This document shows, piece after piece, positions 14,264 to 64,000 of a stretch of DNA of 64,000 bases. Within the stretch, counting starts at the first letter, position 1; each line of letters begins with the position of its first letter. Origin of the DNA: Pseudoclavibacter sp. RFBB5 (GTDB lineage Bacteria; Actinomycetota; Actinomycetes; Actinomycetales; Microbacteriaceae); NCBI RefSeq assembly GCF_002931555.1, contig NZ_PSTZ01000001.1, forward strand, positions 372,001 to 436,000, given 5' to 3'. The notes below the pieces were generated by a model. It was not told the origin of the DNA and searched no databases. It worked only from the letters and a program-made list of their open reading frames with translations. Made by a program: the position numbers and the translations under genes.

Positions 14264-14377
14264 CGATCGCCACCTGACCGGCGGCCGGCCTCCAACCTGA
14301 AGCAGCGGCTCGGGCCGAGGTGCGATACTCGGCGGAGCGTTTCCCGCGCCCCCGCAAGTCGAGGAGAGCACCACTGC

Positions 14378-15733
14378 ATGACCGTTGAACCCCGCCGTGC
14401 CGTCGCGATCATCGGCAGCGGCCCCTCGGCTTGCTATACGGCGCAGGCGCTGCTCAAGCTGAGGCGCGACGTCGATATCACCATGTTCGAGCGCCTGCCC
14501 GTGCCTTACGGCCTCATCCGCTACGGCGTCGCACCGGACCACGTCGGGACCAAGGCTGTCACCCGCCAGTTCGATCGACTCTTCACCCGTTCGGGTGTGC
14601 GCTTCCTCGGCAACGTCGAGGTGGGGCGCGACGTCGACCTCGAGTCGGTGCGAGGCGCGTTCGACGCAACCGTCGTCGCGACGGGGCTGCACGCCGACGC
14701 GCACCTGCCGCTCCCGGGGTTCGACGACGCGCGAGTCGTCGGCGCTGGACGATTCATGCGCATCCTGAACCAGCACCCCGGCGACGAGGTGTCCCTTCCC
14801 TCGCTCGGCGCTCGCGTCGCGGTCGTCGGGAACGGCAACGTGGCGATCGACATCGTGCGGCTGCTCGCGAAGCACGAGACGGACTTCGAGGGGTCCGACG
14901 TGCACTCGCCGCTGCTCGAGCAGGCCTCGGGTGAGCTGCGGACCATCGAGGTGCTCGGACGATCCCTCGTCGACCAGGCGAAGTTCACCCCCTCGCTGCT
15001 CGCAGAGCTCGGACGCATCGACGATGTCCGCTACGAGGTTGTCGGCGTCGAGGCCTCGTCGCTCGAAGATTCTGCGGAGAGATCGGGGCAGGCGGCTGCG
15101 CTCGCGGCGCTGCTCGCCCGCGACCAGCCGACCACGCCTCGCATCACGGTGCGCCTCCGGTTCGGCGTCGCGCCCGTCGCGCTTGCCGCTGAGTCCGAGG
15201 GAGGCTCGCCCCTCCGGCTCTCGGTCGCCGGCCCCGGCTCCTTCGAGCCCCAGGGTGCTTCGACGGTCGCCGAGCCCGCGTCTCTCGACGTCGACTCGGT
15301 CGTTACCGCCGTCGGCTTCCACCGCGGTGACGCGCACCTGCTGCATGCGCTGCTCGGTCACGAGCGGGATGTCTTCGCGGCAGGCTGGGCGAGGCGCGGC
15401 CCGCAGGGCACCATCGCCGAGAGCCGCGCCGAAGGGCAGACGGTCGCGCGCGAGGTCGAGGAGTGGCTTGCATCGGCGGATGTGAAGCCCGAGGGTGAGC
15501 GGGCGGCCCTGCTCGCACGCCTCGACGAGGTCTCGGTGAGCTTCGCCGAGTGGAACGTCATCGACGAGCACGAGCAGCGTCAGGCTGGCCCCGGCCGCGT
15601 GCGGGCGAAGGAGCAGGACACCGAGAGTCTCCTGCGCATTGCTCGAAGCTCATCCGGGTCCTCGGCCGCGGTTGCTCCGCTAAGCTCCCACCCGTCCGTG
15701 CCAGAAGCCCCAACCCCCGACAGTGACAACTAG
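14378..15733 (+). CDS. Ferredoxin/flavodoxin-NADP reductase (FprA/adrenodoxin-reductase type)
   Basis: FAD flavoprotein that moves electrons between NADPH and ferredoxin or flavodoxin, 451 aa, as in mycobacterial FprA. FAD-binding GSGPSACYTA (about 13-22), the family motif PYGLIRYGVAPDH, an NADP-binding VVGNGNVAIDIVRLL and a C-terminal AGWARRGPQGTI matching the family GW.+RGP.G block. A weak Shine-Dalgarno (GAGGAGAG) precedes ATG 14378. Nine bases downstream is a flavodoxin, its likely partner. About 55 C-terminal residues (from about 400) are Ser/Ala-rich and beyond the usual fold. Confidence 0.9.
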   Translation: MTVEPRRAVAIIGSGPSACYTAQALLKLRRDVDITMFERLPVPYGLIRYGVAPDHVGTKAVTRQFDRLFTRSGVRFLGNVEVGRDVDLESVRGAFDATVVATGLHADAHLPLPGFDDARVVGAGRFMRILNQHPGDEVSLPSLGARVAVVGNGNVAIDIVRLLAKHETDFEGSDVHSPLLEQASGELRTIEVLGRSLVDQAKFTPSLLAELGRIDDVRYEVVGVEASSLEDSAERSGQAAALAALLARDQPTTPRITVRLRFGVAPVALAAESEGGSPLRLSVAGPGSFEPQGASTVAEPASLDVDSVVTAVGFHRGDAHLLHALLGHERDVFAAGWARRGPQGTIAESRAEGQTVAREVEEWLASADVKPEGERAALLARLDEVSVSFAEWNVIDEHEQRQAGPGRVRAKEQDTESLLRIARSSSGSSAAVAPLSSHPSVPEAPTPDSDN

Positions 15734-30576: not shown

Positions 30577-31608
30577 TCAGGCCGGTGCGCTGCCGGTCGA
30601 GCCGCGCACGGCGAGACTCGTTGCAACGCGCTGCACGCGCTGGAGCTGCACGGGGTGCTGCATCCGCTCGAGGAGGAGCGTGCCGGCCTGCACTCCGATG
30701 GCGAAGTTGCCGGTGTCGACGGAGGTGAGCGACACCACCTGGAACTTCGCGAGCGGGGAGTTGTCGTAGCCCGCAACGGACAGGTCGGCGGGCACCCGCA
30801 GTCCGAGGGTGTTGGCGACCGAGAGCACGCCGATGGCGGACGCGTCGTTGAAGGCGAAGATCGCGGTGACCCGCTCGCCTTCCGGGGCCCCGAGGAGCCG
30901 TCCGGCGGCCGCATGCGCGCTCTCCTCGCTCATGCCGCCAGCCTCGACGACGGCGTGAGCGGCGAGTCCGGCTTCGGTCATGGCTCGCAGGAAGCCCTGC
31001 TCCCGCAGTTCGCTGATTCGACCGGGCCCACGGAGGTAGGCGATGCGAGTGTGGCCGAGCTCGAGCAGGTGGCGAGTGACCTGGCGGGCGCCGGCCTCGT
31101 CGTCGTTCGTGACGATGTCGACCGCGGGAAGGTCGGGGTCGAGGGTGCCGGCGAGCACGACGGGCACGTCGTCGGCGATGCGGGCGACGGCGTCACCCTC
31201 TGAGGTGGTGCCGATGACGACGATGCCGTCGACGCCCTGCTGGATGAGGGCATCCAGCGAGCTGCGCCCGATGCGCTGGTCGGTGCGGCTGTCAGTCAGG
31301 AGCGTCGCGTAGCCGGAGGCGTGGAGCGTCGCGGAGGCCCCTTCGAGGAGCTCGACGAACCAGGGGTTGCGGAGGTCGTTGACGACGAGCCCGACGGTTC
31401 GGGTCTTGGCGCGGGAGAGTCCGCGGGCGTGCGCGTTGGGGCGGTAGCCGAGTTCCGCGATCGCGGTGAGGACGGCCGCGCGGCGGGTGTCGCTCACGTG
31501 CGGGGCATCGCGCAGCACCAGCGAGACCAGCGACTTGGAGACACCGGCCCGCTCGGCCACGTCGCGGATGGTGACGGGGGTCGAGGCTGACTTCTGGGTC
31601 TCCTCCAC
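30577..31608 (-). CDS. LacI-family regulator
   Basis: 343 aa. N-terminal HTH with TIRDVAERAGVSKSLVSLVLRD (about 12-33, quoted by parts: DVAERAGVS, SLVSLVL) and hinge helix ARGLSRAKT; the C-terminal periplasmic-binding-like domain has GLVVNDLRNPWFVELLEG, GVDGIVVIGT and DLSVAGYDNSPLAK. GTG 31608 has a near-perfect Shine-Dalgarno GGAGGTGA. Divergent from two Gfo/Idh dehydrogenases and a sugar ABC importer, so it most likely represses that operon until a sugar or polyol binds. Confidence 0.93.
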   Translation of the reverse strand: MEETQKSASTPVTIRDVAERAGVSKSLVSLVLRDAPHVSDTRRAAVLTAIAELGYRPNAHARGLSRAKTRTVGLVVNDLRNPWFVELLEGASATLHASGYATLLTDSRTDQRIGRSSLDALIQQGVDGIVVIGTTSEGDAVARIADDVPVVLAGTLDPDLPAVDIVTNDDEAGARQVTRHLLELGHTRIAYLRGPGRISELREQGFLRAMTEAGLAAHAVVEAGGMSEESAHAAAGRLLGAPEGERVTAIFAFNDASAIGVLSVANTLGLRVPADLSVAGYDNSPLAKFQVVSLTSVDTGNFAIGVQAGTLLLERMQHPVQLQRVQRVATSLAVRGSTGSAPA

Positions 31609-31765
31609 GGTGTCACCTCCTGACTGCGCTTCGGTCGAGCCACCAGCGTATGGCCTTTTCCGTCGCAGTGTGGAACTATTTGCACCGATCTATATTTGTC
31701 CAAGACACGCGAGCAAGCAGCAGCAAGCACTGCCGGGCACGCATCCGATGAGCAACGAGGGTGGC

Positions 31766-32992
31766 ATGAGCACACAGAACGCGCGCCGGCTGAGCGCAGG
31801 AATGGTCGGGGGCGGCATCGGCGCCGACATCGGCAAGACGCATCGCTTCGGGATGCGGATGGATGACCGGTACTCGCTCGACGCGGGGGTCTTCGGGCGC
31901 GACCGTGAGCAGTCGGCCGGAGTGGCCGCATCCCTCGGGGTCGCGCCTGAGCGCACCTACGACACGTACCAGCAGATGGCGGAAGCTGAGGCCGCACGCG
32001 AGGACGGCATCGACATCGCCGTCGTCGCGACGCCGAATGACAGCCACTTCGAGGTGGCCAAGGCGTTCCTCGAGCGCGGTATCAACGTCGTGTGCGAGAA
32101 GCCGCTCACGCGGGACTCCGCGACAGCTCGCGAGCTCGTCGACCTCGCGGCGGCCAACGACGTGATCCTCGCCGTGCCGCACTGCTACTCGGCGTATCCG
32201 ATGGTCAGAGAGGCGGCACGCATGGTGAGCGACGGTCGCCTCGGCCGGCTCACGTTCGTGGACGTGGAACACGCCTCCGGCTGGGCCGCGACGCCGCTCG
32301 AGCTGACCGGCCACAAGCAGGCGAGCTGGCGCACGGACCCCGACGTGGCGGGGTTCCCGAGCGTCGTCGGCGATCTCGGCACGCATGGCTACCACCTCGC
32401 TCGCTACATCACCGGCCTCGAGGCCGATCGCGTCTCGGCGCAGCTCCACACTCTCGTGCCTGGTCGGAAGGTCTTCGACAATGCGACGGTCGCACTCGAG
32501 TTCAGTGACGAGGTCCCGGGTCGGCTCTGGGCGAGCATGGCCGCGACTGGCCACAATCACGGGCTGCGCATCCGCGTCTTCGGCGACGAGGGAAGTCTCG
32601 AGTGGCAGCACGAGGACCCGCACCACCTGACCTTCCAGGACCTCGAGGGCACGACCACGGTCTTCACGCACGGCCTCGCCTCGCTCTCCGAGGACTCAGC
32701 CAGGCTCACGAGGGTCGGCCTCGGGCACCCGGAGGGCTTCCTCGAGGCGTTCGGCAACTTCTACCGCGACCTCGCCGACGAGCTCGAGGCGCGACGGGAT
32801 GCGCGCCCGTCGACCATCCGCGAGCTGTCGTTCCCGACGGGCATCGACGGTCTCATCGGTGTGCAGTTCGTGGAGGCCGTCGCTGCCTCGCACGACGCCG
32901 ATGGGGCGTGGGTCGTGCCGGCGAGCGTTGTCGATCACGAAGCCGAGGTGGCGGCCGCCGACGCTGAACTCCGTGTGGCAGGGGGCAACTGA
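31766..32992 (+). CDS. Gfo/Idh/MocA dehydrogenase (first)
   Basis: NAD(P)-dependent oxidoreductase on a sugar, polyol or inositol, 408 aa. Rossmann motif GMVGGGIGADIGK near the N-terminus, the family EKP in CEKPLTRD, and the catalytic-region GDLGTHGYHLA. ATG 31766 is preceded by GAGG at 5-base spacing; an ATG at 31748 is less well placed. It starts an operon with a second Gfo/Idh gene one base downstream and a sugar ABC transporter. A -10-like TATATT lies at 31691-31696 in the divergent region. Substrate not deducible; levoglucosan- and inositol-type systems have similar gene sets. Confidence 0.88.
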   Translation: MSTQNARRLSAGMVGGGIGADIGKTHRFGMRMDDRYSLDAGVFGRDREQSAGVAASLGVAPERTYDTYQQMAEAEAAREDGIDIAVVATPNDSHFEVAKAFLERGINVVCEKPLTRDSATARELVDLAAANDVILAVPHCYSAYPMVREAARMVSDGRLGRLTFVDVEHASGWAATPLELTGHKQASWRTDPDVAGFPSVVGDLGTHGYHLARYITGLEADRVSAQLHTLVPGRKVFDNATVALEFSDEVPGRLWASMAATGHNHGLRIRVFGDEGSLEWQHEDPHHLTFQDLEGTTTVFTHGLASLSEDSARLTRVGLGHPEGFLEAFGNFYRDLADELEARRDARPSTIRELSFPTGIDGLIGVQFVEAVAASHDADGAWVVPASVVDHEAEVAAADAELRVAGGN

Positions 32993-32993
32993 G

Positions 32994-33989
32994 ATGCAGA
33001 GATTCGCGCTCATCGGCGCCGGGTTCATCGGCGCCGTCCATGCTCAGAGCCTCGCGGCCAACCCCGATGTCGACTTCCGCTACGTGTACGACGTCGACCT
33101 CGCGAGGGCAGAGAGGCTGGCCGTCTCGCACGGCGCAGCGGCCGTGCCCTCGCTCGCGCAGGTCTTCGATGCCGCGCAGGTCGACGCCGTGCTCATCGCG
33201 TCCTCCACCAACAAGCACTCCGAGCATCTTCGGCTCGCGGCCGACGCGGGCATCGCAGCGCTCTGCGAGAAGCCCATCGACCTCGATCTCGAGCGCGCCC
33301 GGGAGACGGTGGCGTACGTCGAGGCGTCCGGCATCACCGCGATGGTCGATTTCAATCGTCGTTTCGACCGCGACTACTCCGAGGTGAAGCGAATCGTGGA
33401 TGCGGGCGAGGTCGGCGACGTCGAGCTGCTGCAGCTCTCGAGCCGCGGGCCATCCATGCCGCCGCTCGAGTACATCGCGGTCTCCGGCGGGCAGATGCGC
33501 GACCAGACGGTGCACTTCTTCGACCTCGCGACCTGGATCACCGGCCTCGATGCGGTCGCCGTGTCCGCGACGGGCAGTGCCTTGGCTGAACCCAGGGTCG
33601 CCGAGTACGGCGACGTCGACACGTCGATCGCCACCGTGCGCCTCGCGAACGGTGCCCTCGTGCAGATCGACAGCATCCGTCGCTCCGGCTACGGCTACGA
33701 CGAGCGCATCGAGGTGTTCGGCTCGGAGGGGCTGGTCGAAGCCAAGCGGCACAGGTCGGGCCAGGTGGCCAGGTATGGGAGCGGAACGGTGACGGAGTCG
33801 GGGATGCACGCTGGCTGGTTCGAGCGTGTGCAGCCCACGTACGCCGCGGCTCTCGCGGAGTTCGTCGGTGCGCTCGAGGATGCGCGTTCGCCGTCGCCGT
33901 CACTGCGCGAGGCGCTTCGCGCGCAGGCTGTCGCCGAGGCGGCGACGCGCTCGCTCGCGAGTGGCCGGGAGGAGCCGGTGCTCTCTTGA
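32994..33989 (+). CDS. Gfo/Idh/MocA dehydrogenase, inositol 2-dehydrogenase-like (second)
   Basis: 331 aa, the usual length for inositol 2-dehydrogenase relatives. Rossmann motif IGAGFIGAVHAQ (7-18), CEKPIDLDLE and the active-site QMRDQTVHFFDLATWITG (given in part: DQTVHFFD). It begins one base after the stop of the first Gfo/Idh gene, so the two are cotranslated. Two different dehydrogenases in one operon suggest sequential oxidation and reduction of one substrate, or oxidation of two epimers. A hairpin terminator follows at 34014. Confidence 0.88.
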   Translation: MQRFALIGAGFIGAVHAQSLAANPDVDFRYVYDVDLARAERLAVSHGAAAVPSLAQVFDAAQVDAVLIASSTNKHSEHLRLAADAGIAALCEKPIDLDLERARETVAYVEASGITAMVDFNRRFDRDYSEVKRIVDAGEVGDVELLQLSSRGPSMPPLEYIAVSGGQMRDQTVHFFDLATWITGLDAVAVSATGSALAEPRVAEYGDVDTSIATVRLANGALVQIDSIRRSGYGYDERIEVFGSEGLVEAKRHRSGQVARYGSGTVTESGMHAGWFERVQPTYAAALAEFVGALEDARSPSPSLREALRAQAVAEAATRSLASGREEPVLS

Positions 33990-34013
33990 GCGCGCGTCGA
34001 AACGTACCGTCGG

Positions 34014-55692: not shown

Positions 55693-57465
55693 ATGTCAGA
55701 GCCAGCCGCCACCCCCGCGCGCGCCGCCACCCCCGACGTGCCCGCGGTGCCGGACGCGTTCATCCTCACTGCCGGCACAGTCGTGACGATGGATGCGCAG
55801 CTGCCGCGCGCGTCAGCCGTCGCGGTGTCTGCGGGCAAGATCGTGGCGGTCGGCACGCTCGCCGAGTGCCTTGAGGTGGTGCCGGGCGCTCCCGTCATCG
55901 ACAGCGGCGCGCCCGTCCTCATGCCGGGCTTCATCGACCCGCACAGCCACCCGTTCCTGAGCGGCCTCGCGACGCAGCTGCCCGCCTTGTCGATCGCGCC
56001 GTGGAAGGCGCCGACCTGGAGCGAGGTGCTGAGCATCTTCTCGCAGGCGATGGCCGAGCACGACGCCGACGTCCCCCTCCTCTTCAACGGCTTCGATGCG
56101 CTCCTCCACGGCCGCCCCGCCCCGACGGCCGCCGACCTCGACGACATCTTCGGCGACCGGGTCGCGGTGGTCGTAGACAACTCCGGGCACGCCTGCTCCT
56201 TCACGTCGGCGCTCATCCGCAGCCGCGGGTGGGACTCGAACCCCCCGGCCGACCCCATCGGCGGCTCCTTCGCGCGCGACGCTGATGGCGCCCTCGCCGG
56301 CATCTCGTTCGAGATTCCCGCGAACGCCGCCGTGCTCGGCCCCGTGATGCAGCAGCTCGGCGGCAACCCGCTTGGCAGCGCCGCCGAGTACTACGCCCTC
56401 ATGGCGCGGGTCGGCATCACGTCGACCTCCGACATGACGTTCTCCACCGACCTCGCCCCCGCCTACGAGGCGCTCGCGGCCATGCCATCCTCGCCGTTGC
56501 GCGTGAGCCTGTGGGAGGTGTCGACGGCTGCCGCCCCGGGCGCCGCGGCGAACTTCGACGCTGGTGAGGAGCGCCTCGTGAAGCAGGGCGTGAAGCTCTG
56601 GACTGACGGATCCCCGTGGATCGGCAACATCGCCACCTCCTTCCCCTACCTCGCGAGCGACGCGACGAAGCGGGCCGGTATCGACCCCTCGACGGCGGGA
56701 GGCGCATCCGCCATGAACTACTCGCGAGCGCAGGTGGACGCGACGCTCGATGCGTGCGCGCCGCTGGGCTGGCAGATGTCGTTCCACGCGAACGGTGACC
56801 TCGCCATCGACTTCGCGCTCGACGCCTACGAGCGCGCCCTCGCCCAGCACGGATTGCTCGGCACGGACCACCGCTGGCGCATCGAGCACGCCGGGGCCGG
56901 GCGCCGCGACCAGTTCGAGCGGGCCGCGCGCCTCGGCGTGCACGTGTCGCTCGCACCGTTCCAGTACTACTACTGGGGTGACCTGCTCGACGGGCAGATG
57001 TTCGCTCCCGAGCAGGGTGCGCGCTGGCAGGCCTTCGCCGATGCGGTGGACGCCGGGGTCGTCGTCTCGCTGCACAACGACGGCTCGGTGTCACCGCCGT
57101 CGCCCATCCTGAACGTGCAGACGGCCGTGACTCGGCGCACCAGCAGCGGGCGCATCCACGCGCCACAGCAGGCCATCTCAGTGGATGCGGCGCTCAGGGC
57201 GCACACGATCGATGCGGCGCGCACCCTGCATCGGGAGCATCTGGTCGGCTCGATCGCGGTCGGCAAGCTCGCCGACTTCGTGGAGCTGAGCGCCGACCCG
57301 TCCGAGGTGACGCCGCGCTACCTCGCTGAACGAGTGCGGGTGCTCGGGACGTGGGTGGGTGGCTCACGGGTCGACCTGCCCGAGTTCCTGGCCGCGGCGC
57401 ACGCCAGCGACCCGGCACCGCACGCGCACCACGCGGCTCGCGGTCACTCGGGTCACGGCTGCTGA
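55693..57465 (+). CDS. Amidohydrolase family 3 (YtcJ-like)
   Basis: 590 aa metal-dependent hydrolase. Metal motif PGFIDPHSHP, a FHANGDLAIDFALDAYERA block (His), RIEHAGAG (His) and SLHNDGSVSPPSP (Asp) match YtcJ-like enzymes. Near the C-terminus GSIAVGKLADFVELSADP is the typical composite domain. The last 20 residues are His/Ala-rich (AHHAARGHSGHGC) and may bind metal. ATG 55693 follows AAGGAG. Monocistronic. Physiological substrate unknown; an amide, formamide or cyclic imine is typical. Confidence 0.9.
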   Translation: MSEPAATPARAATPDVPAVPDAFILTAGTVVTMDAQLPRASAVAVSAGKIVAVGTLAECLEVVPGAPVIDSGAPVLMPGFIDPHSHPFLSGLATQLPALSIAPWKAPTWSEVLSIFSQAMAEHDADVPLLFNGFDALLHGRPAPTAADLDDIFGDRVAVVVDNSGHACSFTSALIRSRGWDSNPPADPIGGSFARDADGALAGISFEIPANAAVLGPVMQQLGGNPLGSAAEYYALMARVGITSTSDMTFSTDLAPAYEALAAMPSSPLRVSLWEVSTAAAPGAAANFDAGEERLVKQGVKLWTDGSPWIGNIATSFPYLASDATKRAGIDPSTAGGASAMNYSRAQVDATLDACAPLGWQMSFHANGDLAIDFALDAYERALAQHGLLGTDHRWRIEHAGAGRRDQFERAARLGVHVSLAPFQYYYWGDLLDGQMFAPEQGARWQAFADAVDAGVVVSLHNDGSVSPPSPILNVQTAVTRRTSSGRIHAPQQAISVDAALRAHTIDAARTLHREHLVGSIAVGKLADFVELSADPSEVTPRYLAERVRVLGTWVGGSRVDLPEFLAAAHASDPAPHAHHAARGHSGHGC

Positions 57466-57522
57466 GCTCCCGGTTTTGCCACGACGCCACGTTCGCCTGA
57501 CCTCGCGGCTCGCATCGTCGAC

Positions 57523-57574
57523 AGTTGTGGCGAAATGCGCTTGCGGCAGCAGAGAAGCGCACAGAACCACAACT
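57523..57574 (+). terminator. Two-part hairpin with TTGTGG/CCACAA ends
   Basis: Outer stem AGTTGTGG (57523-57530) with CCACAACT (57567-57574) and inner stem TGCGCTT (57536-57542) with AAGCGCA (57555-57561), joined by symmetric 5-base internal loops. It follows the amidohydrolase stop by 57 bases. Confidence 0.65.
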
Positions 57575-57603
57575 CTGCCCGTGAAGAACCCTCCGACAGG
57601 GAC

Positions 57604-57632
57604 TTGCGGCCCGGTCGCCGCATCGCTACATT
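57604..57632 (+). promoter_or_regulatory. Promoter of the first 57-64 kb operon
   Basis: -35 TTGCGG (57604-57609) and -10 TACATT (57627-57632), 17 bases apart. The LacI-type operator at 57641 lies over the expected transcription start. Confidence 0.55.
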
Positions 57633-57640
57633 AGGTGCAA

Positions 57641-57662
57641 TGGCAGCGCTACCAGTAGCGCT
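57641..57662. promoter_or_regulatory. LacI-type operator, copy 1
   Basis: TGGCAGCGCTACCA (57641-57654) is a near-perfect LacI-type palindrome with central GC. It overlaps a second palindrome AGCGCTAC-CA-GTAGCGCT (57645-57662). The same arrangement recurs at 61943-61964. Confidence 0.75.
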
Positions 57663-57724
57663 CACATGGTTCGGGCCTCCCCGGTTCGAAGCACACGCTC
57701 ACGCAACGGCGCGAAGGAGTAGCA

Positions 57725-58870
57725 GTGTCCACGAGTTCCCTTGAGACGCAGGCCGACGAGGCTCGGGCTGGCAGCAATGCCCTCCTCCCCGACAGCCCAG
57801 TGCGGGCCCGCTCCGCGAAGATCGGCGCAATCGGAGCCGGCGCCATCATGGCAGACCAGCACCTCGCCGCGTACAAGCAGGCAGGCTTCCCGGTCGTCGC
57901 CATCGCATCCCGCACGAAGGCCAACGCCCAGCGCGTCGCCGAGCAGTGGGGCATCCCAACCGTGCACGACACCCCAGAGCTGCTCATCGAGGACCCGGAC
58001 GTCGAGATCGTCGACATCGCGTATCCACCCGACCTGCAGCCCGCCCTCATCCGCAAGGCGCTCGCGCAGCCGCACGTCAAAGCCGTGCTCGCCCAGAAGC
58101 CCCTCGCGCTCACCCTCGATGAGGCCATCGCCCTGCGCGACGAGGCTGCAGCGGCCGGCAAGATCCTCTCCGTCAACCAGAACATGCGCTACGACCAGTC
58201 CATCCGCGTGCTCAAGCAGCTGCTCGACGGCGGAGAGCTCGGAGACCCCGTCTTCGTCGAGATCGACATGAAAGCCGTGCCCCACTGGCAGGGCTTCCTC
58301 GAGGGCTACGACCGTCTCACCCTCGCCAACATGAGCGTCCACCACCTCGATGTCCTCCGCTTCCTCTTCGGAGACCCCGACGAGATCATGACCGTCACCC
58401 GCACCGACCCGCGCACCCAGTTCCCCCACACCGACGGAATCGTCGTCTCCACACTCCGCTTCCCCGGCGGGCTCCTCGCCCTCTCGACCGAAGACGTCTG
58501 GGGTGGCCCGCGCGAAGAGGGCTTCGACGACGACTTCTCCATCACCTGGCGGGTGGAGGGCACACGCGGCGTCGCGAAGGGCACGATCGGCTGGCCGAGC
58601 GGCACGCCCTCGACCATCACCTACGCATCGGCGGCTCGCGATGACGGCGGCCCATCGACCGACGGCAAGTGGGTGACGCCCACCTGGGACACCCACTGGT
58701 TCCCGCACGCCTTCATCGGCGTCATGGAGCAGCTCCAGTTCGCGGTCGAGACCGGCAGTGAGCCAGCCCTCACCGTCGCCGACAACGTCAAGACCGTCGC
58801 GCTCATCGAGGCCGGCTACCGCTCCATCGCCGAGCGCCGCCCAGTGCGCCTCGACGAGTTCCAGCTCTGA
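57725..58870 (+). CDS. Gfo/Idh/MocA dehydrogenase (third)
   Basis: NAD(P)-dependent sugar oxidoreductase, 381 aa with a 34-residue N-terminal extension. Rossmann motif IGAGAIMADQHL (about 38-49); the usual EKP is QKP (in LAQKPLALT), keeping the lysine and proline; catalytic-region MSVHHLDVLRFLFG. GTG 57725 follows AAGGAG. First gene of a set with a TIM-barrel isomerase, an SDR and a DUF4432 protein. Gfo/Idh plus TIM-barrel partners are known to oxidise and cleave glycosides at the 3-keto stage; that role is only a hypothesis here. Confidence 0.88.
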   Translation: MSTSSLETQADEARAGSNALLPDSPVRARSAKIGAIGAGAIMADQHLAAYKQAGFPVVAIASRTKANAQRVAEQWGIPTVHDTPELLIEDPDVEIVDIAYPPDLQPALIRKALAQPHVKAVLAQKPLALTLDEAIALRDEAAAAGKILSVNQNMRYDQSIRVLKQLLDGGELGDPVFVEIDMKAVPHWQGFLEGYDRLTLANMSVHHLDVLRFLFGDPDEIMTVTRTDPRTQFPHTDGIVVSTLRFPGGLLALSTEDVWGGPREEGFDDDFSITWRVEGTRGVAKGTIGWPSGTPSTITYASAARDDGGPSTDGKWVTPTWDTHWFPHAFIGVMEQLQFAVETGSEPALTVADNVKTVALIEAGYRSIAERRPVRLDEFQL

Positions 58871-58943
58871 CCGCACCACCCCGCATCCACTTCACCAACA
58901 CCTCAATCGGCCAACGGCCCCTACAGAAGGAGCAAAGAAGCTC

Positions 58944-59858
58944 ATGATCCAAGTCGGCATCTTCAGCGGATACTTCCCCTACGACCTCAAGACCACCGCC
59001 CAGAAGGCGCGCGAGCTCGGCTTCAACACCGTCCAGCTCGACCTGCACTTCAAGGACCTCGACCTCACCGCAGGGCAGATCACGAAGGAGAAGGCGAAGC
59101 TCGTCGCCGACACCTTCCGCGACAACAACCTGCCCATCTCGGCGATCTCCGGCTACACGAACATCGTGCACCCCGATCCCGAGCACCGCCGCGCCAACGT
59201 CGACTACCTGAAGGAGATCATCCGCAACGCACGCTCCTTCGGCACCCCATACGTCATCTCCGAGTCGGGCACGTTCAACCCCGACAGCGAATGGGACAGC
59301 GACCCGCACAACAAGACCGAGGACGCCTACGAGCAGGTGCGCGACGTGCTCGCCGAGCTCGCGCAGGAGGCCTACGACCACGGCTCGATCTTCCTGCTCG
59401 AGACGTACGTCAACAACGTCATCGGCTCCGTGCGCGAGACCGTTCGCGTCTTCAACGACATCCGCTCGCCCGGCATCGAGCTGCTCATGGACCCGACGAA
59501 CTACTTCGACGCGTCCAACATCGACGACCAGGCCGGCGTGCTCAACGAGGTCTTCGACACGCTCGCCGACAAGGTGCGCGTCGCCCACGCCAAGGACGTC
59601 AAGCGGGCCGGCGACGACAAGAGCGAGAAGCACGCCGACATCGGTGACGACGACGCGCTCGCATCGCACACGTTCCGCGGCGTCGGCGAGATCGAGCTGC
59701 CGGCCGCTGGCCTCGGCTCGCTCGACTACGAGCTCTACCTGCAGCGCCTCGCCGAGCGCAACCCGAACGCGCCGCTCATCATCGAGCACCTCGACGAGTC
59801 GGACATCCCGCGTGCGAAGAAGTTCATCGACGACATCCTGCGCAAGTACTCGATCTAG
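58944..59858 (+). CDS. Sugar phosphate isomerase/epimerase-family TIM barrel
   Basis: 304 aa xylose-isomerase-like barrel. Metal-ligand positions are visible: E in FLLETYVNN, D in LMDPTNYFD, H/D in VAHAKDVK and E in IIEHLDESD. Preceded by AGAAGGAG and AAGAAG before ATG 58944. 73 bases after the Gfo/Idh gene and followed by a long inverted repeat. Members isomerise or epimerise sugars, dehydrate inosose, or act as 3-keto-glycoside lyases; context allows any of these. Confidence 0.9.
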   Translation: MIQVGIFSGYFPYDLKTTAQKARELGFNTVQLDLHFKDLDLTAGQITKEKAKLVADTFRDNNLPISAISGYTNIVHPDPEHRRANVDYLKEIIRNARSFGTPYVISESGTFNPDSEWDSDPHNKTEDAYEQVRDVLAELAQEAYDHGSIFLLETYVNNVIGSVRETVRVFNDIRSPGIELLMDPTNYFDASNIDDQAGVLNEVFDTLADKVRVAHAKDVKRAGDDKSEKHADIGDDDALASHTFRGVGEIELPAAGLGSLDYELYLQRLAERNPNAPLIIEHLDESDIPRAKKFIDDILRKYSI

Positions 59859-59863
59859 TCGTC

Positions 59864-59943
59864 TCTGACAGTCAAGGTGACGTGGGCGGGCAGACGCGCC
59901 GCCAAGGGGTGACGAACGTGCGCACGTCACCTTGACTGTCAGA
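59864..59943. repeat. Perfect 21-bp inverted repeat, GTCA-GGTGACG type
   Basis: Arms 59864-59884 and 59923-59943 are exact 21-base reverse complements. The 38-base loop has another GGTGACG (59908-59914) that can pair with the right arm instead. Related to 43657-43725. It starts 5 bases after the isomerase stop and probably ends or attenuates that transcription unit. Confidence 0.8.
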
Positions 59944-59989
59944 AGACCCTGAAGACCCCAGACCACAACAGGCTTCGGCCGGAGGAACC

Positions 59990-60745
59990 ATGACGGAAAC
60001 AGGTGAGAAACCGGTCGCGATCGTGACCGGCGCCGGGGGATCGCTCGGGCGGGCGACCGCGCTGCGGCTCGGACGCGACGGCTTCGCGGTCGCGGTGCTC
60101 GGGCGAGGCGGCGCGACCCTCGCGGAGACGGCCGAGGAGCTGCGTGCGGCCGGCGTGCCCACGTATGTGCTCGAGGTCGACCTGCGCGACGCGGCGGCGA
60201 TCAAGGCCGCGGTGCGCGAGGCCGAGGCCGAGCTCGGGCCGGTGCATGCGCTCATCAACAACGCCGCGATCTACCCGCCGACGCCGTTCTTCGACATCAC
60301 CGTCGAGGAGTTCGACGACGTCGTCGCGGTCAACCAGCGCGGTTACTTCGTTGCAGCGCAGGCTGCGGCCGAGCTGATGCGCGAGCGTGGCACAGGCGCG
60401 ATCGTCAACATCGGCTCCATCACCTGGAGCGGCGGCTGGGACAAGCTCGCGAGCTACGTGACGACGAAGGGTGCCGCCGTCGCCATGACTCGCGCCCTGG
60501 CGCGCGAGCTCGGCGAGTTCGGCATCCGCGTGAACCTGCTCTCGCCCGGCGCGTTCCCGACGAAGGCCGAGGAGATCCACGAGAACCCCGAGGAGTACAC
60601 GCAGTTCGTGCTCGACCACCAGTCGCTCAAGCGGCGCGGTGACCCCGACGAGGTGGCGAGCGTGATCTCGTTCCTCGTCGGCAAGGATGCGAGCTTCGTG
60701 ACCGGGCAGACGATCAACGTCGACGGCGGATGGGTGATGATGTGA
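59990..60745 (+). CDS. SDR-family oxidoreductase
   Basis: 251 aa classical short-chain dehydrogenase/reductase. Cofactor motif TGAGGSLGRA (about 11-20), NNAAIYPPTPF, and the catalytic Ser/Tyr/Lys arrangement in GSITWSG and SYVTTKGA (YxxxK). C-terminal TGQTINVDGGW is typical. ATG 59990 follows GGAGGAACC. The stop overlaps the next gene (GTGA). Likely oxidises a sugar, sugar acid or polyol; related to 3-ketoacyl-ACP reductase and glucose/2-deoxygluconate dehydrogenases. Confidence 0.93.
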   Translation: MTETGEKPVAIVTGAGGSLGRATALRLGRDGFAVAVLGRGGATLAETAEELRAAGVPTYVLEVDLRDAAAIKAAVREAEAELGPVHALINNAAIYPPTPFFDITVEEFDDVVAVNQRGYFVAAQAAAELMRERGTGAIVNIGSITWSGGWDKLASYVTTKGAAVAMTRALARELGEFGIRVNLLSPGAFPTKAEEIHENPEEYTQFVLDHQSLKRRGDPDEVASVISFLVGKDASFVTGQTINVDGGWVMM

Positions 60746-61887
60746 GCGAGCAGACAGCAGGATCAGGCGTCGATGTCTTCGGCTCGAACCTTTCGGTGGC
60801 CGAGCTCCGCAGGCGCACGGGCGACCTCTCGGCCGTCGCGGGCATCCGCCAGGTGGTGCTCGACAACGGCGTGGAGCGTGGCGTGCGGGCGATCGACCTG
60901 CGCACCTCCGCTGGCCTCGAGCTGGAAGTGCTGGTCGACAGGGCGTTCGATCTCGGTTCGATGCGCTTCCGCGGAGCCCCCATCGGGTGGCGCAGCGGCA
61001 ATGGGTTCCGCCACCCGGGCCTGCACGAGCACAACGACGAGGGCGGGCTCTCGTGGCTGCGCGCGCTCGACGGCCTTCTCGTCTCGGGCGGCCTCGACCA
61101 CACGCTCTTCGGCGGGGAGGTGGATGCGACGCGCTACAACTACCCGCCGAAGCAGACCGTGACGCACGGGCTGCACGGGCGGCTGACCGCGATTCCGGCG
61201 CGGCTACTCGAAGCCCGTGAGGTCGAACGCGACGGCCGCGTCGTACTGCGGGTGGTCGGCGAGGTGATCCAGGCCACCGCGTTCGGCGAGCATCTGCGCC
61301 TGACGCGCACGATCGAGCTCGACTTCGACGGTCGCGAGGTGCGCTTCGACGATGTCGTCGACAACCTCGGATTCGACCCGACGCCGCACATGTTCCTGTA
61401 CCACATCAACGTCGGCTGGCCGTTCCTGGATGAGGGGGCGAGGTTCGTGGCGCCGATCGCCAGGCACCTCTGGCAGTCGGACTCCGTGGCCGAGCAGGGC
61501 GCCAGCTACCGCGTCATGCCGGCCCCGATCGACGGCTTCGTCGAGCAGGTCACCGAGCACGAGCTCGTCGTCGGCGACGACGGCAGGCACCGCGTCGCGC
61601 TCATCACCGCGGGTGGCGAGCGGGGTATCGAGCTGAGCTGGGAGGCCGCGGGCATGCCGCACTTCTTCGAGTGGCAGAACCTGCGCAGTGGCCAGTACGG
61701 CATCGGCCTCGAGCCGAGCACCCATCACGTGTCGGGGGATGCGGCTTCGCGTGAGGATGGCACGGCGCTGTTCCTCGAGCACGGGGAGTCGCGCAGCTAC
61801 TCGACGACCATCCGCGTGCTCGACGGGGTCGCGGAGACGAGCGCGGTCGAGGCCGCGATTCGTGCCATCGGCGATCAGCCGGAATAG
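60742..61887 (+). CDS. DUF4432 aldose-epimerase-like protein
   Basis: 381 aa with the galactose-mutarotase-like beta-sandwich pattern of DUF4432: GLELEVLVDRAFDLGSMRFRGAPIGW (quoted by its core VDRAFDLG), VSGGLDHTLFGGE, TVTHGLHGRLTAIPAR, and YHINVGWPFLDEGA. The conserved histidines in HGLHGR and LYHINVG are candidates for catalysis. GTG 60742 overlaps the SDR stop (GTGA); an ATG at 60730 is possible. Probably a mutarotase or epimerase for the same sugar as its neighbours. Confidence 0.88.
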   Translation: MSEQTAGSGVDVFGSNLSVAELRRRTGDLSAVAGIRQVVLDNGVERGVRAIDLRTSAGLELEVLVDRAFDLGSMRFRGAPIGWRSGNGFRHPGLHEHNDEGGLSWLRALDGLLVSGGLDHTLFGGEVDATRYNYPPKQTVTHGLHGRLTAIPARLLEAREVERDGRVVLRVVGEVIQATAFGEHLRLTRTIELDFDGREVRFDDVVDNLGFDPTPHMFLYHINVGWPFLDEGARFVAPIARHLWQSDSVAEQGASYRVMPAPIDGFVEQVTEHELVVGDDGRHRVALITAGGERGIELSWEAAGMPHFFEWQNLRSGQYGIGLEPSTHHVSGDAASREDGTALFLEHGESRSYSTTIRVLDGVAETSAVEAAIRAIGDQPE

Positions 61888-61936
61888 GACTCCACGCCCG
61901 GGGCTGACGACGATGTTGGCCCCGGGCGCTCTACAC

Positions 61937-61964
61937 TTGACATGTTAGCGCTGCCAGTAGCGCA
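61937..61964 (+). promoter_or_regulatory. Promoter with LacI-type operator, copy 2
   Basis: -35 TTGACA (61937-61942) is followed directly by TGTTAGCGCTGCCA (61943-61956) and the overlapping AGCGCT-N6-AGCGCA (61947-61964), which occupy the spacer and -10 region. CCAGTAGCGC is shared exactly with copy 1. Confidence 0.75.
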
Positions 61965-61985
61965 TCCACCGAAACGAGGAACACC

Positions 61986-63416
61986 ATGAGCGGCGCAGAA
62001 GACACCAGCGAGACGCACCAGCCAGAGGCCGGTGCCGGCGGCGGAATCCTCTCCGGCATCCGCGTGCTCGACTGCTCGATCGCCATGGCGGGCCCCTTCG
62101 CGGCACAGCGCCTCGGCGACCTCGGCGCCGACGTCATCAAGGTCGAGCCGCCGGCCGGCGAGTGGCAGCGCCACGCCCCTGCGGGCGGCGCCAACGGCAA
62201 CGAGATCAACGTCTCGTTCCTCTCGCTCAACCGCAACAAGCGCTCCATCGCCCTCGACCTCAAGTCCGACGACGGCCGCCAGGTCCTGCGCGAGCTCGTC
62301 GCGACCAGCGACGTGTTCCTGCAGAACTACCGGCCAGGCGTCGCCGCTCGCCTCGGCGTCGACTACGAGACGCTGCGCGCCATCAACCCGAGCATCGTCT
62401 ACGTGTCGGTCTCCGGCTACGGCGAGGACGGTCCATACCGGATGCGGCCGGGCCAGGACCTGCTCCTCCAGGCCATGAGCGGCGCCATGCTCTCCACCGG
62501 TCGCGACGGCGAGCCCCCGCAGGCCGCCGGACAGTACCTCGTCGACGCCGTCACCGCATCCACCGCCTTCGAAGGCGTGCTCGCGGCGCTCTTCCACCGT
62601 GAGCGCACGGGGGAGGGGCAGCTCGTGACCGTCAACATGCTCGACGCCATCACGACCCTGCAGATGCAGGAGCTGTCCGTCTTCACCGCGGGGGGAGTGC
62701 CGCAGCAGCGCAGCGCCGAGCCGCACGCGCACGTCTACATCCGCTCGCCGTACGGCTCGTTCGCGACCTCCGACGGCTTCATCGTGCTCGCCATGCCAGA
62801 CCTCGAGGAGCTCGGACGCACGATCGGCGAGGACAGCTTCATCGGCCTCGACACGCTCGACGACTCGTGGCGCCTGCGCGACGAGGTCTTCGCCAAGACC
62901 GCTGCCCGGCTCGCGACGAACACGAGCGCCCACTGGCTCGACGCGTTCTCGAAGACCTCGATCTGGGCCGGCCCCGTCTACGGCTACGCCGACCTCGTCG
63001 CCGACCCGCAGATCGCGCACAACGGCACGTTCGTCGAATACGAGCACCCCACCGAGGGGCTCGTGAAGACACCCGGCTTCCCCTATAAGTTCTCGAAGAC
63101 GCCCGCTCGAATCGACCGAGGCGCCCCGCTCACGGGCGAGCACACGCGAGAGATCCTCAGAGAGCTCGGGCACGCGGCCGCCCGCATCGAGGAGCTCGCC
63201 GAGCGCGGCGCGATCGCCGTGCACGCCACCCTCGACAACGTGCGGGAGCAGCTCGGCGGCGCGGTGTCGGCCGACGGCACGGCCCTGCCCGGCGGGTCGG
63301 ATGCGGTGCTCCCCGGAGAAGGGGCGCCGGAGCCGGCCGCGGCTTCCACCCCCGGGCTCGACACCAGTTCGAGCGCTCAAACCGCGAACGTCGGCGCGAG
63401 CGCCGAACGATCGTGA
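61986..63416 (+). CDS. CaiB/BaiF-family CoA-transferase
   Basis: 476 aa family III CoA-transferase. Motifs: GIRVLDCSIAMAGPFAAQRLGDLGADVIKVEPP (quoted by AGPFAAQRLGDLGADVIKVE), LNRNKRSIALDLKS, NYRPGVAARLGVDYETL and a probable catalytic Asp in QYLVDAVTAS. About 60 C-terminal residues are low-complexity Ala/Gly/Ser. ATG 61986 follows GAGGAACACC. The stop overlaps a solute-binding-like gene (GTGA). Moves CoA between carboxylic acids; in this cluster it suggests an acid formed from the oxidised sugar is activated. Confidence 0.92.
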   Translation: MSGAEDTSETHQPEAGAGGGILSGIRVLDCSIAMAGPFAAQRLGDLGADVIKVEPPAGEWQRHAPAGGANGNEINVSFLSLNRNKRSIALDLKSDDGRQVLRELVATSDVFLQNYRPGVAARLGVDYETLRAINPSIVYVSVSGYGEDGPYRMRPGQDLLLQAMSGAMLSTGRDGEPPQAAGQYLVDAVTASTAFEGVLAALFHRERTGEGQLVTVNMLDAITTLQMQELSVFTAGGVPQQRSAEPHAHVYIRSPYGSFATSDGFIVLAMPDLEELGRTIGEDSFIGLDTLDDSWRLRDEVFAKTAARLATNTSAHWLDAFSKTSIWAGPVYGYADLVADPQIAHNGTFVEYEHPTEGLVKTPGFPYKFSKTPARIDRGAPLTGEHTREILRELGHAAARIEELAERGAIAVHATLDNVREQLGGAVSADGTALPGGSDAVLPGEGAPEPAAASTPGLDTSSSAQTANVGASAERS

Positions 63417-64000
63417 GCGAGACGCCGCCGGTCGCCGCAGAAACGCGGGGCCATCCGCTTCGCTACCGCGGGCTCACCTGGGACCATCCGCGAGGGCGCA
63501 CTGCGCTCGAGGCGGCAGGTTCGACAGCCGCCGGTGGCCGCGGGGGAATCGAGATCGACTGGGAAGCGCATCCGCTCGAAGGCTTCGAGTCGGCGCCGAT
63601 CGCCGACCTGGCCGACCGCTACGACCTCATCGTCCTCGACCATCCGCACCTCGGCGAGGCGCTCGCGAGCGGCTCGTTCAGGCCGCTCGACGACGTGTTC
63701 GACGCCGCCCTGCTCGATCGCATCGCGGCTGACGCGATCGGCCCGAGCTTCACCTCCTACTCGCTGGACGGCGCGCAATGGGCGCTGCCACTCGACGCGG
63801 CCACGCAGGTCGCGGCGGCGCGCGTCGACCTGATCGCCGCGGCCGAGCCGAGCACCTGGGACGACGTCGTCGCCCTCTCCGAATACGCCCCCGTGGCGCT
63901 GTCGCTCGCCGGCCCGCACGCGTTCCTCACATTCGCGTCCGTGCTCGCAGGGGCCGGCGCGCCGATCTCCGACAGTCCTGCCGAAGGGGCGCTCTTCTCC
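63413..64000 (+). CDS. Extracellular solute-binding-like protein without signal peptide, 3' partial
   Basis: Runs off the window; 196 residues are visible from GTG 63413, which overlaps the CoA-transferase stop. The sequence HPLRYRGLTWDHPRGRTALEAA and DLADRYDLIVLDHPHLGEAL resembles family 1 (sugar-type) ABC binding proteins, with a DH-motif near residue 80. There is no signal peptide, lipobox or hydrophobic start, so it should stay in the cytoplasm unless the start is elsewhere. Possibly a soluble sensor or substrate carrier for the CoA-transferase; function unknown. Confidence 0.75.
   Translation, partial: MSETPPVAAETRGHPLRYRGLTWDHPRGRTALEAAGSTAAGGRGGIEIDWEAHPLEGFESAPIADLADRYDLIVLDHPHLGEALASGSFRPLDDVFDAALLDRIAADAIGPSFTSYSLDGAQWALPLDAATQVAAARVDLIAAAEPSTWDDVVALSEYAPVALSLAGPHAFLTFASVLAGAGAPISDSPAEGALFS

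Follow-up and report, generated by a model that had tools for sequence, protein, structure and literature searches.

The 64,000-nucleotide stretch of the Pseudoclavibacter sp. RFBB5 genome analysed here (the window; C7:372001-436000 of the 3.77-Mb assembly) ends with sugar oxidation genes followed by genes for a class III (CaiB/BaiF) coenzyme A (CoA) transferase and a solute-binding-protein-like (SBP-like) protein. The distribution of a composite operator strongly supports that these genes belong to a three-operon regulon, probably under one GntR-like repressor of the LacI family. Gene order in relatives likewise strongly supports a conserved unit made of the class III CoA-transferase, the signal-less SBP-like protein and a CoA hydratase. 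By analogy with CaiB and CaiD of carnitine metabolism, we tentatively favour, at slightly less than even confidence, a non-phosphorylative sugar pathway in which acid-sugar dehydration would proceed on CoA thioesters.

A composite operator precedes three putative operons

Judged by spacing and strand, the genes would form three transcription units (Table 1). Operon 1 lies in the window and encodes a Gfo/Idh dehydrogenase, a TIM-barrel protein, an SDR oxidoreductase and a DUF4432 protein, whose first ATG, at 60730, implies a 16-base overlap with the SDR gene. Operon 2, which continues past the window end, encodes the CoA-transferase, the SBP-like protein, a crotonase, a FAH protein and a LacI regulator. 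The gaps along it are -4, -4, 197 and -4 bases, the SBP-like gene start overlapping the CoA-transferase end, and the LacI gene the FAH gene, by 4 bases each. Operon 3, on the reverse strand, encodes a periplasmic sugar-binding protein, an RbsA-type ATPase and two permeases (the first identified from the list of open reading frames, ORFs, alone), that is, an RbsABC-type ATP-binding cassette (ABC) transporter. Beyond these genes lie those for an acyltransferase-like protein (by reading), a RidA-like protein and an acyl-CoA ligase, whose membership of the regulon is uncertain. Pfam or reading of the sequences recovered all the gene families that a first-pass annotation of this DNA had named (Gfo/Idh, TIM barrel, SDR, DUF4432, CoA-transferase and an SBP-like protein without signal).

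The 26-base operator consists of two boxes of the AGCGCT type whose centres are separated by 12 bases, and the pattern TGnnAGCGCT-N6-AGCGCnnnCA occurs exactly only three times in the assembly, the next best sites having two mismatches. The sequence AGCGCTNCCAGTAGCGC is also exact at three sites of the whole assembly, in operators 1 and 2 and at C7:448562, all on contig C7 and spanning less than 19 kb. The first-pass annotation had described the same composite operator at two places, and it is indeed present at 57641 and 61943. It had also joined two operons by this operator: the joining holds, the number does not, for the third copy, 14.6 kb downstream, stands before the ribose-type transporter. 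This third operator is palindromic over its 26 bases except for the two central ones. Instead of matches at many unrelated genes, which would have spoken against a regulon, the genome-wide search returned these three exact sites. Looser forms are commonplace in this GC-rich window: the short operator half with one mismatch allowed is not rare (four window matches; mean of 1.43 in 100 shuffles, 8 of which reach 4), and the same holds for the 26-base form with three mismatches or fewer (nine matches against a mean of 6.35). One site with a single mismatch to the 17-base form, at C1:508620, was taken as a chance match because it lies, by reading ORFs, within an aroB-like coding stretch. A consensus scan of 57400-62100 for sigma-70-type promoters found no site and gave no confirmation of the claimed placement of the operators over a start site and in a -35/-10 space.

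The regulator of all three operons is probably the LacI protein of operon 2. It carries a predicted LacI helix-turn-helix and a sugar-binding domain, in keeping with the palindromic form of the candidate operator, and its best NCBIfam model is GntR of Pseudomonas (308 bits, under the cut-off of 400). The available text on P. aeruginosa GntR reports the operator AC-N-AAG-N-TAGCGCT (PMC5902321), and TAGCGCT is thus shared by both systems; the Pseudoclavibacter system differs in its score under the cut-off, its double-box operator and its other target genes.

Regulator and operator co-occur in related bacteria. We fetched 100 related loci, 97 of them distinct (L083, L100 and L139 are the same DNA as L052, L053 and L057), among which L088, L094 and L099 (Azospirillum brasilense), and L146 and L147 (Sphingomonas), nevertheless have some identical DNA in common. 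Of the 100, 21 encode a LacI homologue at 45% identity or more. The composite operator, scored at up to 3 of 16 positions differing, is found close to a cluster gene in 19 of them, versus 3 of the 76 distinct loci without the LacI homologue (3/79 before duplicates were merged). Sixteen of the 19 have a site with at most one mismatch, and the remaining three (Azospirillum L086, L094 and L099) have three-mismatch sites only, before LacI; random sequences of the same first-order composition for all 100 loci contained 13 sites at three mismatches and none at two or fewer. The exceptions are L088 and L091, with LacI and no operator site, and three loci with the operator alone: L075 and L080, which are short and where no LacI was seen, and L068, a three-mismatch match. 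Near-perfect palindromes of the form TGTTAGCGCTA-NCGN-TAGCGCTAACA occur in Streptomyces, Kitasatospora and Pseudonocardia loci. The first-pass annotation had correctly placed the controlling LacI beside neither operator in the window, and its suggestion of a gene outside the window was borne out; the gene at 30.6 kb that it offered as an alternative is another LacI gene, and is unnecessary because operon 2 holds one whose homologues track the operator. ORFs that read as Gfo/Idh dehydrogenases face this second gene of the LacI type, which lies at 30577-31608 on the minus strand; going by the translations, the region (window 30577-34000) is a separate sugar locus.

A CoA-transferase, an SBP-like protein and a hydratase form a conserved unit

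The SBP-like gene is present in 17 of 297 genomes of the order sample and in 3 of 396 of the phylum sample. As named loci we kept the best 80 of at least 573 confirmed stretches encoding SBP-like relatives, which hence represent close relatives; they come from actinobacteria, proteobacteria and acidobacteria, the nearest among the matches listed being those of Pseudoclavibacter terrae and Pseudoclavibacter sp. AY1F1. Loci L051-L070 represent 20 of the 22 foreign genes behind 24 rows of the order sample (G295:C184 and G119:C1:4165056 were left out), and L061, whose SBP-like gene lies in two frames, was scored as having it. Family counts over the 97 distinct loci were made with tblastn; another family count, cited below for F18, F19 and F47 over 100 loci, relied on a simple ORF caller that undercounts some genes.

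The genes for the CoA-transferase, the SBP-like protein and the crotonase keep an identical order and strand in all 80 named loci. With start codons picked by script, the SBP-like start overlaps the CoA-transferase stop in 69 of the 80 (by exactly 4 bases in 48), and the crotonase gene shows a 4-base overlap in 54. In 20 further loci, 11 have a crotonase and nine a MaoC-type hydratase in the same place, so that a CoA-transferase, an SBP-like protein and a CoA hydratase (88 crotonase, 9 MaoC) occur together in 97/97 distinct loci. The use of two unrelated hydratase families in one position points to removal or addition of water at a CoA ester. FAH proteins of the 2-keto-3-deoxypentonate (KDP) dehydratase type are encoded in 62 of the 97. 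Thiolase was found in one (1/100 fetched) and acyl-CoA dehydrogenase, searched with four own-genome queries at 1e-10, in none (0/100), and beta-oxidation of a sugar-derived acid was rejected on these counts. Elsewhere in the window (13043-13525; C7:385043-385525), a 736-residue open frame has a weak match (35.6 bits) to the acyl-CoA dehydrogenase family.

More distant examples vary in composition. L178, from a distant member of the phylum (genome G356, the only one of 27 genomes of its class with SBP-like relatives), has the order lactonase (SMP-30), SBP-like protein, CoA-transferase, crotonase and SDR, with 4-base overlaps between each of the first four genes and the FAH gene on the opposite strand; it has no IlvD or enolase-type match within 20 kb. 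SBP-like matches on plasmids amount to 145 records, 90 of them from Sinorhizobium. Of nine plasmid regions that were read, four encode a crotonase (three clusters of Sinorhizobium, one of Variovorax), and another four have MaoC within the stretch, with no constant adjacency. In L189 (8995-15330; a Rufibacter plasmid of the Bacteroidota), the SBP-like gene stands beside two successive CoA-transferase genes, followed by genes for a sugar-binding protein, Gfo/Idh and MaoC; the region belongs to a TonB/SusD locus, and no IlvD or enolase-type protein was matched across 19 kb.

Conserved residues and predicted folds

Asp187 of the CoA-transferase aligns with the Asp of YfdW that we take to be catalytic, and is kept in 81/81 close sequences as well as in 16/16 further CoA-transferases (nine from MaoC-type loci, L178 and six plasmid loci). 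The crotonase retains E118 and E138, presumably the hydratase glutamate pair, in 81/81 sequences and also in L178 and L190.

The FAH protein matches PDB 9kkt (FAH family, function unstated) at E=1e-126 and 2-keto-3-deoxyarabinonate dehydratase at 5e-18. Its residues E197, E226, E228 and D247, kept in 53/53 sequences, align with E114, E143, E145 and D164 of 2-keto-3-deoxy-D-arabinonate dehydratase, positions that we assume to be metal ligands. By these residues the operon-2 FAH protein is of the KDP-dehydratase type. The accessible part of a study of pentose oxidation describes FAH-superfamily enzymes with a specific glutamate as KDP dehydratases (PMC6336799). All four residues are retained in the FAH protein of L178, and that of L191, of the hydrolase type (against the 2,4-didehydro-3-deoxy-L-rhamnonate hydrolase model it scores 407 bits, below the cut-off of 500), has Val at the first.

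The SBP-like protein has the invariant stretches TWDH.RG, DHPH, DAA.QV and GQP in 17 sequences, and TWDHPRG, DHPH, GQP and others are still invariant over 48. The gene in the window being cut by the window end, its fold was taken from the L072 homologue, whose AlphaFold model (predicted local distance difference test, pLDDT, 92.4) matches MalE-like proteins with a Foldseek probability of 1.00, which predicts a type II solute-binding fold. In an alignment of the 17 sequences judged by eye, from a few to ~20 residues precede TWDH and form no hydrophobic leader. The protein probably has no recognisable signal peptide and is kept in the cytosol.

A proposed route through CoA thioesters

Non-phosphorylative pentose routes use, in turn, a dehydrogenase, a lactonase, an acid-sugar dehydratase and a KDP dehydratase, as set out in the part available of PMC6336799. 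The regulon holds candidates for the first (dehydrogenase) and fourth (KDP dehydratase) steps. We found no IlvD or enolase-type protein in the window or in L021 and no UxaA-type dehydratase in the whole assembly; elsewhere the assembly encodes a single IlvD match and eight matches to MR/MLE. The place of the acid-sugar dehydratase is plausibly taken by the CoA-transferase, the SBP-like protein and the crotonase, most clearly in L178. A class III CoA-transferase and a crotonase are the pair that dehydrates carnitine. Among the relatives, which were scored for IlvD and enolase-type matches but not for UxaA-type ones, 57 of the 97 loci have no such match in the stretch (44 of these longer than 19 kb), and 29 of the 97 have an FAH gene and no such match. 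We propose dehydration on CoA thioesters because of the missing dehydratase, the position of the unit, its two hydratase families, the lack of beta-oxidation genes and these 29 loci.

Under this proposal, the RbsABC-type transporter would import a sugar, which the Gfo/Idh, TIM-barrel, DUF4432 and SDR proteins would oxidise without phosphorylation to a sugar acid. The CoA-transferase would move CoA from a donor (perhaps succinyl-CoA) onto this acid, and the crotonase would dehydrate the aldonyl-CoA, removing its C3 hydroxyl and its acidified C2 proton, to a 2-keto-3-deoxy acyl-CoA. The CoA-transferase would then reuse the CoA of the product for a further molecule of sugar acid, in the manner of CaiB and CaiD with carnitine, and the FAH-type dehydratase would convert the free 2-keto-3-deoxy acid into alpha-ketoglutarate semialdehyde. 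In the cytosol, the SBP-like protein would assist the CoA-transferase as its partner, probably by binding the sugar acid or offering it to the enzyme. What the sequences show directly is that the operons have one operator in common, that a LacI gene accompanies it in relatives, that the unit is conserved and that its catalytic residues are kept; repression by this LacI protein, all reactions of the CoA unit, the substrate and the part played by the SBP-like protein are inferred. A semialdehyde dehydrogenase acts after the KDP dehydratase, and an aldehyde dehydrogenase (family F6) is encoded in 35 of the 97 relatives. We give slightly less weight to the more general idea that a class III CoA-transferase, a cytosolic subunit of SBP fold and an interchangeable hydratase (crotonase or MaoC) may replace the classical metal or iron-sulphur acid-sugar dehydratases of non-phosphorylative sugar oxidation across Actinomycetota, Pseudomonadota, Acidobacteriota and Bacteroidota, which seems to us a little less likely than not.

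Several observations weigh against the thioester route. The best NCBIfam model for the CoA-transferase reaches 240 bits against a cut-off of 750, and it has no close characterised enzyme. Pfam recognised no lactonase among the regulon genes scanned, and no semialdehyde dehydrogenase was recognised in the regulon, homologues of 42-47% identity being encoded elsewhere in the genome. In 40 of the 97 distinct loci there is an IlvD (one locus) or enolase-superfamily match; L071 and L072, the two nearest relatives, are among them, and the CoA unit thus often coexists with a possible acid-sugar dehydratase. In three plasmid clusters, enolase-type genes (in one case also a UxaA-type pair) lie beside the CoA-transferase, SBP-like and MaoC genes, so that the unit need not be the dehydratase there. 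A Roseibium plasmid has a thiolase and a CoA ligase adjoining the unit on the opposite strand, for the Sinorhizobium pSymB CoA-transferase/SBP-like pair the 29 kb read contain neither a crotonase nor a MaoC match, and 35 of the 97 loci have no FAH homologue of at least 50% in the stretch.

In L071 (2882-4027) and L072 (2622-3794), the nearest Pseudoclavibacter loci, an enolase-superfamily gene directly precedes the Gfo/Idh gene; its absence from the window and L021 suggests loss or gain between close relatives, and the MR/MLE proteins of our assembly are only ~27% identical to it over long stretches. The pSymB pair (L186, Sinorhizobium meliloti, 12829-15116) lies ~9 kb from an amidohydrolase/IclR/ABC-transporter group. 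L-fucose was considered as substrate, as hinted by GH95, fuconolactonase-like and mutarotase genes near the MaoC type and on plasmids; it was not transferred to the Pseudoclavibacter regulon because the FAH protein of the latter keeps the pentonate-dehydratase glutamate. D-apiose, cyclitols and C-glycosides were also weighed as substrates and not adopted.

Alternative readings of the CoA unit

It is unlikely, though conceivable, that the unit acts on an acyl part of the substrate other than the sugar (e.g., an ester-linked hydroxycinnamate), or on a short acid left after cleavage, beside an ordinary sugar pathway. An AMP-binding acyl-CoA ligase is encoded between the LacI and transporter genes here and also in L071 and L072, with homologues in L116 (44%), L103 (29%) and the plasmid locus L188 (26%). 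However, the ligase occurs in just four of the 80 named loci (L071, L072, L116 and L103), thiolase and acyl-CoA dehydrogenase in 1 and 0 of 97 loci, the binding partner has the predicted fold of a sugar-binding protein, and most loci have genes of sugar oxidation next to the unit.

Both hydratase glutamates are invariant (81/81), which epimerisation alone would not obviously need, and MaoC hydratases take the place of the crotonase in nine loci. These features argue against a second reading, in which the CaiB-family protein and the crotonase would invert the acidic C2 of a sugar-acyl-CoA and a separate enolase-type (family F7) enzyme would dehydrate. It draws on the homologous CaiB-family alpha-methylacyl-CoA racemases, on the IlvD/enolase-superfamily matches in 40 of 97 loci and on the F7-type protein of L071, nearest to the talarate/galactarate dehydratase model (150 bits, cut-off 500). 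Since our own regulon and 57 of the 97 loci have no such match in the stretch, we regard it as distinctly unlikely.

Cleavage of the CoA ester by a retro-aldol or hydrolytic step, of the feruloyl-CoA hydratase-lyase type, into two- and three-carbon acids appears improbable. Loci of the sphingomonad type do add a 2-hydroxyacid dehydrogenase, a glycerate-kinase-like P-loop protein (by reading) and an FMN dehydrogenase, and the available text on deoxyribonate proposes CoA esters of sugar acids followed by cleavage (PMC6365646). These extra families are found in at most 14 of 100 loci each (F18, 14; F19, 14; F47, 7; by the simple ORF caller), in contrast to FAH in 62 and aldehyde dehydrogenase in 35 of 97. 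Finally, the SBP-like gene as a misplaced transport gene, linked to the CoA-transferase by chance, would suit its full predicted solute-binding fold and its Pfam SBP_bac_8 match, but this reading is already contradicted by its adjacency to the CoA-transferase in 97/97 distinct loci, by N-termini that read as lacking a signal peptide and by the separate transporter SBP of the regulon, and we give it almost no credence.

Comparison with known systems

The proposed thioester route shares with the carnitine system (CaiB-CaiD, with CaiC) a class III CoA-transferase with its Asp, a crotonase with both Glu and, here, a CoA ligase gene nearby; it differs in the surrounding sugar oxidation genes, the solute-binding-fold partner, the lack of conservation of the ligase and the lack of any acyl-CoA dehydrogenase (CaiA) match in the 97 related loci. 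With the Weimberg/Route II clusters, as far as the accessible text describes them (PMC6336799), it has in common an FAH-type KDP dehydratase with the specific glutamate, an aldehyde dehydrogenase adjoining in relatives and the clustering of sugar dehydrogenases, transporter and regulator, whereas the CoA-transferase, SBP-like protein and crotonase are found here in place of an IlvD/EDD, enolase-type or UxaA-type dehydratase. In Klebsiella michiganensis, deoxyribonate oxidation has been proposed to proceed via deoxyribonyl-CoA with a CoA synthetase, a dehydrogenase and a thiolase (PMC6365646); a sugar acid would be activated as a CoA ester in both cases, and the available portion of that article mentions neither a binding protein nor dehydration of a CoA ester.

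The first-pass annotation could put no name to a sugar-oxidation pathway with a CoA-transferase, and we found no description of such a cluster in open-licence PMC full text either. That literature returned no paper pairing DUF4432 with a CoA-transferase, none that mentions aldonyl-, xylonyl-, arabinonyl-, gluconyl- or fuconyl-CoA, none that links Weimberg with a CoA-transferase, an enoyl-CoA hydratase and a gene cluster, and none combining sugar acid, CoA-transferase, solute-binding protein and CaiB.

Front-end enzymes and features of the locus

Orthologues of the Gfo/Idh and TIM-barrel proteins are encoded in 29 and 30 of the 97 loci, which gives them the look of a substrate-specific entry module for a shared core. 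DUF4432 and SDR orthologues are more frequent, at 58 of the 97 each. The YcjS/YcjR and levoglucosan pathways pair a Gfo/Idh dehydrogenase with a TIM barrel. Here, too, the Gfo/Idh gene adjoins that of a xylose-isomerase-like TIM barrel, whose model (pLDDT 88.8) has as nearest predicted folds SCO6571, L-ribulose 3-epimerase, UlaE, 2-hydroxy-3-keto-glucal hydratase, YcjR and others, epimerases and a hydratase alike. The pair may carry out oxidation-elimination, the chemistry that the first-pass annotation mentioned for such pairs, or oxidation-epimerisation. The differences are a Gfo/Idh score of 50 bits to the levoglucosan dehydrogenase model, far under its cut-off of 650, and the CoA unit and FAH dehydratase downstream. 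The TIM barrel had no match among PDB sequences, and the DUF4432 protein matched 3ty1, a hypothetical aldose 1-epimerase, at E=4e-23. Between the TIM-barrel and SDR genes (window 59864-59943) lies a 24-base inverted repeat, 96% complementary, with 32 bases between its arms. Its 20-base arm has 17 genome sites at up to three mismatches (13 on C7; none in a reversed control), 12 of which form six facing pairs 57-59 bases apart, a repeated palindromic element.

Table 1. Operators and genes of the regulon, in window coordinates unless a contig is given.
Feature	Position	Strand	Remarks
Operator 1, TGGCAGCGCTACCAGTAGCGCTCACA	57641..57666	.	Upstream of operon 1
Gfo/Idh/MocA dehydrogenase, 381 aa	57725..58870	+	Pfam 71 bits; best NCBIfam model IolG 86 bits, cut-off 355
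Xylose-isomerase-like TIM barrel, 304 aa	58944..59858	+	Pfam PF01261 103 bits
SDR oxidoreductase, 251 aa	59990..60745	+	Pfam 193 bits
DUF4432 protein, possibly sugar mutarotase	60730..61887	+	Pfam 277 bits
Operator 2, TGTTAGCGCTGCCAGTAGCGCATCCA	61943..61968	.	Upstream of operon 2
Class III (CaiB/BaiF) CoA-transferase	61986..63416	+	Pfam CoA-transferase family III 365 bits; Asp187
Solute-binding-fold (SBP-like) protein, 439 aa	63413..64000	+	Ends outside the window, at window-equivalent 64732; Pfam SBP_bac_8
LacI	window-equivalent 66938-67966		Last gene of operon 2; 2.9 kb past the window end
Operator 3	C7:448558-448583	.	114 bases 5' of the reverse-strand transporter gene

Implications

The system described here is plausibly a new variant of non-phosphorylative sugar oxidation, its most unusual part being the solute-binding-fold protein linked to a CoA-transferase. 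If the proposed route is correct, bacteria would own a further way of dehydrating sugar acids, via CoA esters, and a transport-protein fold would have been recruited as the partner of a CoA-transferase. Plasmid records label SBP-like genes as 'extracellular solute-binding protein' or 'carbohydrate ABC transporter substrate-binding protein', which hides such a pathway, and the genome collection contains at least 573 stretches with a gene for an SBP-like relative. In Pseudoclavibacter, the three-operator regulon offers a direct handle for finding the sugar.

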